Assembly: GCF_000591055.1 (NCBI RefSeq)
Contig: NC_020388.1
Coordinates: forward strand, 2,232,001-2,296,000
Reading direction: 5' to 3'
DNA: 64,000 nucleotides
Origin: Natronomonas moolapensis 8.8.11
GTDB lineage: Archaea; Halobacteriota; Halobacteria; Halobacteriales; Haloarculaceae
Of the stretch, positions 33,357 through 51,919 are shown one piece after another; position 1 is the first letter of the stretch, and each line of letters begins with the position of its first letter. Below the pieces are notes generated by a model. It did no database searches. It was given only the letters and a program-made list of their open reading frames with translations, and was not told the DNA's origin. The translations under genes and the position numbers were made by a program.

Positions 33357-33692
33357 TTATAGAGATACAAGGAGAATACCGGTGGCTTTAGCCACCAGAT
33401 GAATCCGACAAAAGTTTATGTATAGACACAGTACGTATAATTGTGCGTGGGGAACTGGCAGTTGACTCGGTGTTTGCCACGGTTTCTAACCGGAATCAAA
33501 AAGTAAGCCGACCACGCCGACAGTCGTAAAACAATCAGCTATCTCGAAGCCCTTCAGCGGGTACGAGTAACGGCTTCGTGGCAGAGCCACTGGCTGACTG
33601 TCCAGCAAACCTGAGACTCCCAACGTTCAGGATTGACCTGCCCGGTCAACACCGGGTGGGAGGCCCGCGACTTTAGGCGCGGGAGGATGTCA
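33357..33692 (+). mobile_element. Transposase-less IS1341/TnpB-derived element, copy 1 (336 bp)
   Basis: This element is about 87% identical by eye to the one at 51487-51821. The left end TTATAGAGATACAAGGAGAA is followed by the hairpin GGTGG-CTTTAG-CCACC. The right end holds two consecutive hairpins, CCCGG-TCAACA-CCGGG and CCCGCG-ACTTTAGG-CGCGGG, then AGGATGTCA, an end I associate with haloarchaeal IS1341-type TnpB elements and their sense-overlapping/omega RNA. No transposase frame is present. The right edge abuts the katG stop codon. It is best read as a MITE or an RNA-encoding remnant. Confidence 0.7.
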
Positions 33693-36002
<2,310 letters not shown>

Positions 36003-51424: not shown

Positions 51425-51480
51425 GGCTGTCGAGTCGGAGGCTGTCGAGTCGGAGGCTGTCGAGTCGGAGGCTGTCGAAT
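51425..51480 (+). repeat. 15-bp tandem repeat, about 3.7 units
   Basis: Units of GGCTGTCGAGTCGGA at 51425, 51440, 51455 and a partial unit at 51470. It lies immediately left of the second 336-bp element and within the upstream region of the DUF7504 fusion gene. There are no spacers. Confidence 0.95.
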
Positions 51481-51486
51481 CAGTAT

Positions 51487-51821
51487 TTATAGAGATTCGA
51501 GGAGAATACTGGTGGGTTTAGCCACCAGATGAATCCGACAATTTACGTTACAAACCATCGTGCCGTACGCCGTGCGTGGAGAACTGGCGGTTGACTCGGT
51601 GGTCGCCACGGTTCATAGCCGGAAACAAACAGTAAGCCGACCACGCCGACAGTCATTAAACAATCAGGTAACTCGAAGCCCTTTCCGGGGTACGAGTAAC
51701 GGCTTCGTGGCAAAGCCACTGGCTGACTGTCCAGCAAACCGTAGACTCCCAACCGTCAGGATTGACCTGCCCGGCCAACACCGGGTGGGAGGCTCGCGCC
51801 TTTACCCGCGGGAGGATGTCA
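51487..51821 (+). mobile_element. Transposase-less IS1341/TnpB-derived element, copy 2 (335 bp)
   Basis: Same orientation and layout as the element at 33357. The left end TTATAGAGATTCGAGGAGAA is followed by the hairpin GTGG-GTTTAG-CCAC, and the middle includes GTAAGCCGACCACGCCGACA. The right-end hairpins are CCCGG-CCAACA-CCGGG and CTCGCG-CCTTTACC-CGCGGG, then AGGATGTCA. Compared with copy 1, the second pair of the last stem changes from C-G to T-G, keeping the RNA fold. There is no transposase frame. It sits between a 15-bp minisatellite and the surface-protein operon. Confidence 0.7.
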
Positions 51822-51919
51822 CACCGAAGCGGACGATCGGCATAGACCGGAACCGGACGAATTTCAAAAGTATATACTAGTAGTAGATATTATAAGTACT
51901 CGGTCGGAACGAATCGTCG

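Follow-up and report, generated by a model that had tools for sequence, protein, structure and literature searches.

A transposase-free IS200/IS605-type element of Natronomonas moolapensis as a candidate stand-alone guide-RNA gene

Described relatives of the element

The closest described relatives of the element analysed here are the PATEs (palindrome-associated transposable elements) of Haloquadratum. In the parts of the published account on which we draw (PMC3119063), these are transposase-free, occur in many copies, have IS605-like near-terminal palindromes and, like IS200/IS605 elements, retain on the left a short target that is not duplicated. The same parts define PATEs as mobile DNA and describe neither a covarying internal RNA nor a 5′ domain. 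In the Halorubrum virus-host system of HRTV-DL1 the 3′ part of a PATE is strongly transcribed and has been proposed to be a non-coding RNA (PMC10544981); PATEs and PATE RNA expression are both prior knowledge. The HRTV-DL1 PATE (L233, OP630574, about 600-1095) resembles our element in its IS605-like right end with TCAC. As a candidate member of the same family it was rejected: our covariance model of the 5′ RNA domain (R1, below) finds nothing in it and the Rfam model sot0042 is unmatched.

A second relative is sot, the omega-RNA of haloarchaeal IS1341-type tnpB genes (Rfam RF02656, sot0042), which shares with the present RNA the core hairpins, the terminal right-end hairpin and a 3′ terminus at the border of the element. 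However, sot RNAs overlap tnpB, whereas our element has no tnpB and its core is preceded by a 5′ domain with a separate putative promoter. Stand-alone omega-RNAs of IscB, trans-encoded at loci away from the nuclease gene, were reportedly found by Altae-Tran in 2021; they serve another nuclease family, and here the RNA gene itself would be the mobile element. The family reported here and its covarying 5′ domain appear to be undescribed in the open-access literature searched.

We consider it fairly probable that the element, a non-autonomous PATE of the IS200/IS605 type, carries a stand-alone omega-RNA gene as its cargo, with a host TnpB acting in trans and the flanking DNA supplying the guide. 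Since the element has no protein gene and contains a folded RNA resembling a TnpB guide RNA, its TnpB is probably borrowed from elsewhere in the cell.

Copies, borders and insertion sites

The window, by which we mean the whole analysed stretch of 64,000 nucleotides, contains two copies of the element; all features given below are on its plus strand unless stated otherwise. Both copies had been noted in a preliminary description, and both are real: a search of the complete genome (one contig, 2.91 Mb) returned 20 full-length copies, these two among them. Sequence identity among the 20 ends precisely at the element borders. Set against unrelated flanks, the left border is TTAT followed directly by AGAGAT (20/20), and the right border is GGATGTCAC, also in 20/20 copies and one base past the end first assigned. 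The boundaries therefore needed revision at both ends, because TTAT (33357..33360 in copy 1, 51487..51490 in copy 2) is the usual retained IS605-type target and lies outside the element. The element proper is 33361..33693 for copy 1 (333 bp) and 51491..51822 for copy 2 (332 bp). The TTAT, which may also serve as the TAM, is found in 6/6 of the tnpB elements of type T1 described below, and the right-end cleavage site TCAC (33690..33693 in copy 1) recurs in 54/55 of the homologue right ends found.

The element is a PATE, that is, a member of the known class of transposase-free IS200/IS605 relatives. At 332-333 bp it is too short for a transposase and its ends are related to those of IS605-type elements. 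The left-end hairpin (33381..33396; stem GGTGGC-GCCACC, loop TTTA) and both right-end hairpins, as first described, are present in the sequence. The near-terminal palindromes at 33381-33396 and 33664-33683 accompany ends, AGAGAT and GTCAC, that are not inverted repeats. The short left target is kept (TTAT, 20/20) and target duplication is absent, as can be seen at copy L007. This copy lies inside a tandem repeat, whose free unit TTTATATAC is an unoccupied paralogous site reading TTTAT/ATAC without interruption and without duplication of the target. Among the homologues are five Haloquadratum loci (L138, L171, L182, L183 and L186).

The 20 copies fall into subfamily A, with 11 copies that are 97-100% identical to the copy at 33357, and subfamily B, with nine copies, including the one at 51487, that are 85-87% identical to subfamily A; no two of the 20 are identical. 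At genome positions 1214174-1216258, a distance of about 1.4 kb separates two copies of subfamily A that point the same way. Directly left of copy 2, at 51430-51482, there is a tandem repeat of about 15 bp (GGAGGCTGTCGAGTC, about four units).

The insertion point of copy 1 coincides exactly with the stop codon of an ORF of 765 aa on the minus strand, whose frame is undisturbed; judged by length and context, the ORF looks like a candidate catalase-peroxidase gene, katG. The last base of the element and the following TA (33693-33695) form the ORF stop TAG, where the empty site would give TAA. At least nine of the 20 insertion sites are TATA-like when the empty site is joined (TTTAT/ATAC and the like), so promoters may be frequent targets of insertion. 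For one insertion site an empty counterpart was sought in 19 genomes of the same genus, and none was found. The predicted guides, which are the right flanks, have no second exact match in the genome for any of the 20 copies; this fits occupied sites and is also expected by chance.

The RNA within the element and its covariation

The RNA inside the element is about 250 nt long and consists of a 5′ domain, an omega core and a 3′ domain. In copy 1 the 5′ domain (33443..33517) is closed by the arms of stem P1 (33445-33450 and 33512-33517), with the conserved AACTGGCAGTTGACTCGGTGTTTGCC inside. It is followed by the omega core (33519..33602), in which P3 encloses P4 (33544-33552/33559-33567) and P5 (33572-33575/33585-33588). 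The 3′ domain (33617..33683) contains P6 (CTCCC/GGGAG) and the terminal right-end hairpin P7 (33664-33683). The corresponding RNA of copy 2, again comprising 5′ domain, omega core and 3′ domain, occupies 51572..51822 and is matched by R1 at 88 bits. A putative TATA box, TTTATGTA, at 33415..33422 precedes the predicted 5′ end of the RNA by about 25 nt, and 24 homologues of variant I show a TATA-like AT peak (0.69 versus about 0.45) some 25-30 nt ahead of the predicted start.

In an Rfam search of the window, sot0042 was the sole significant match. It covers 33537-33683 over the full length of the model (29.5 bits, E=9e-6), which bears out the omega-RNA-like right end proposed in the preliminary description. 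The RNA extends further than was then supposed, by the structured 5′ domain and the putative promoter. The match is stronger in a homologue whose element likewise has no tnpB (49.4 bits, E=8e-12), and the T1 tnpB loci of the same genome reach 65-66 bits. The gathering score of sot0042 is 88 bits, which the element at 29.5 and also the T1 tnpB loci at 65-66 fail to attain, and the family is further defined by overlap with the 3′ part of a tnpB gene, which the element does not have; on both grounds we do not assign the element RNA to sot0042. It shares with omega-RNAs a constant scaffold that ends at the right border and is followed in the 20 copies by 20 different flanks, and by analogy it would act like one of them. 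In copy 1 the predicted guide is 33694..33713, where, by analogy with TnpB omega-RNAs, the flank would form the 3′ terminus of the RNA and would be antisense to the last part of the minus-strand ORF; in copy 2 it would be 51823..51842.

The absence of a protein, already noted for these copies, is supported: no conserved frame was seen, and homologues differ by insertions and deletions whose lengths are not divisible by three. The possibility of a coding function was rejected on the same grounds, subfamilies A and B themselves differing in length by one base (333 versus 332 bp).

An alignment of 50 diverged homologues supports P1 in the 5′ domain, P4-P6 in the omega core and 3′ domain, and P7 as the right-end hairpin. 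Against shuffle and slide controls, which remove the effect of sequence relatedness only in part, pairing in P4-P7 is kept in 90.7% of cells (75.8% in shuffles), with 166 double-change cells (63.7 shuffled) and a covariation score of 0.386 (0.133 in shuffles) that is far above any slid version. P1 was tested on a curated alignment, because there are two sequence variants and MAFFT does not bring their 3′ strands of P1 into register; it pairs in 92.5% of cells versus 57.6% in 300 block shuffles (maximum 69.6%). Its 98 double-change cells include the replacement of a full strand pair, GCGUGG:CCACGC giving way to GUCCGAA:UUCGGAC. An alignment-light swap test points in the same direction for P1 and P3. 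Since P7 is also needed as the DNA hairpin of transposition, the argument for an RNA is carried by P1, P4 and P5. Conservation at the RNA level had initially been proposed from a single stem pair, C-G versus U.G. That difference is real, but it concerns one pair in one B copy, and the covariation among the 50 homologues, which includes stems far from the transposition ends, supports the proposal far more strongly.

The divergence between subfamilies A and B is uneven: identity is 86-91% in the RNA parts and 94% in the left end, but 33% in the spacer that separates the left end from the start of the RNA. Together with the AT peak, this is what one would expect if an RNA gene were transcribed from a promoter spacer under loose constraint. 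The uneven divergence also bears on the view that we are dealing with an ordinary PATE, in which the terminal hairpins alone matter for single-strand DNA transposition and the interior has no RNA role. PATEs are indeed common in haloarchaea and, in the parts of the source used here, are often internal-deletion derivatives of IS605 elements (PMC3119063), and both ends of our element match IS605 elements in its own genome. Nevertheless, P1, P4 and P5 covary well inside the element, the core is conserved despite several swapped left-end types, and it does not share the free divergence of the spacer; we thus regard this view as very unlikely.

The 5′ domain matches no known family in Rfam, and R1 found nothing convincing in the tnpB elements tested, those of the same genome included. 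As this is also the most conserved part of the RNA, the molecule might instead be a functional structured RNA with a partner other than TnpB; the omega core would then be a leftover, and the 5′ domain would bind some other protein, such as TnpA or an RNA-binding protein of the host. Covariation across the 50 sequences has kept P4 and P5 of that core, which is unlike a leftover, and we judge this alternative unlikely.

Distribution and the candidate TnpB partner

With R1 the 5′ domain was found at 26 places in the N. moolapensis genome and in 55/392 genomes of the class. A DNA search detected the core or part of it in 29/146 genomes, often with different left ends, and a conserved-stretch pattern matched at least 80 DNA stretches, all haloarchaeal among the matches listed. 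Haloarchaeal plasmids are among the carriers of the RNA. The pattern had no match (0) in viral contigs, and no true match to the RNA was seen in phages. A TnpB-like match occurs anywhere in the retrieved DNA at 12/103 RNA loci, and within 200 bp at 1/103, there on the opposite strand.

The presence of the 5′ domain, in diverged form, in 55/392 haloarchaeal genomes indicates that the RNA unit is old and maintained. This argues against a recently degraded tnpB element that kept its 3′ omega-RNA segment by accident, as does the 5′ domain being in none of the tnpB-bearing elements examined. Even though the omega region and the 3′ end of tnpB overlap in TnpB elements, and PATEs with internal deletions are on record (PMC7290912 and, in the parts used here, PMC3119063), we find such an origin extremely unlikely. 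Our tentative extension of the favoured reading, possible although not probable, is a haloarchaea-wide mobile family made of RNA only: self-promoted guide-RNA genes with a private 5′ domain that would take over host TnpBs and, at each insertion, reprogram them with a new guide. Such a family would parasitise TnpB systems as an RNA and would not itself be a TnpB system.

Several IS605-type elements of the genome were compared. T1 elements (six copies, TTAT at the left and TCAA at the right) carry only tnpB, of 446 aa; L088/L089 are also tnpB only and end in TCAC; L054/L055 and L090/L091 have both tnpA and tnpB and end in TCAA and TCAC, respectively. The first 55 bp of our element, which include the left-end hairpin, are 87% identical to T1, and its last 38 bp are 92% identical to L054. 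None of the tnpA elements compared in this genome combines the TTAT target with a TCAC end. Sharing its left end, target and RNA type with the element, T1 is the best candidate for a partner in trans, although the TCAC of the element and the TCAA of T1 make the match of ends and partner imperfect. T1-like TnpB occurs in 45/55 of the RNA-bearing genomes and in 213/337 of the others (Fisher p=0.009), a weak test, given the general abundance of T1-like TnpB and possible confounding by IS load.

In the RuvC-II motif of T1 TnpB (L048-L053) a Gly replaces the usual Glu (INIGKL; INIGKLAGVRED), as in nearly all of the relatives compared (L236-L253). The active site is possibly rearranged or altered, and without this Glu the protein might bind without standard cleavage. 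The altered site would also suit a decoy or sponge, an RNA whose omega core binds host TnpB without productively guiding cleavage and so shields the element copies or the host; 20 copies per cell carry the core, and the additional 5′ domain could block function. Yet the same 54/55 right ends preserve the right-end hairpin, TCAC and an immediate transition into the flank, as a guide RNA would need, even if transposition would also keep them, and we hold a decoy to be unlikely.

Under the stand-alone guide-RNA reading that we prefer, transcription would start at about 33443 from the element's own putative TATA box and run through the 5′ domain, the omega core and the right-end hairpin into the flank, of which the next 16-20 nt or so would be the guide. 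A host TnpB, most plausibly T1, would bind the omega core in trans and then recognise TTAT, as TAM, together with the guide, which is to say the element's own empty donor site. Recognition of the empty site would help the element to persist once TnpA has excised it, and each new insertion would create a new guide. If this is correct, a TnpB guide RNA can have a mobile gene of its own, apart from that of the nuclease, and many RNA loci can share a single TnpB. PATEs, so far listed as transposase-free mobile repeats, would become candidate RNA genes, and a defined RNA family of about 250 nt with a new 5′ domain would be gained. Such an arrangement would also bear on the origin of the trans-encoded guides of CRISPR type V from TnpB.

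Rfam HgcC, a GC-rich archaeal RNA, was rejected as an identity for the RNA in the window, where its match is weak (E 0.2). Weak but repeated HgcC matches, stronger than this one, occur on other IS605-type right ends, at L088 2706-2826, L089 1637-1758, L055 2853-3016 and L054 730-809, and HgcC may be related to TnpB omega-RNA.
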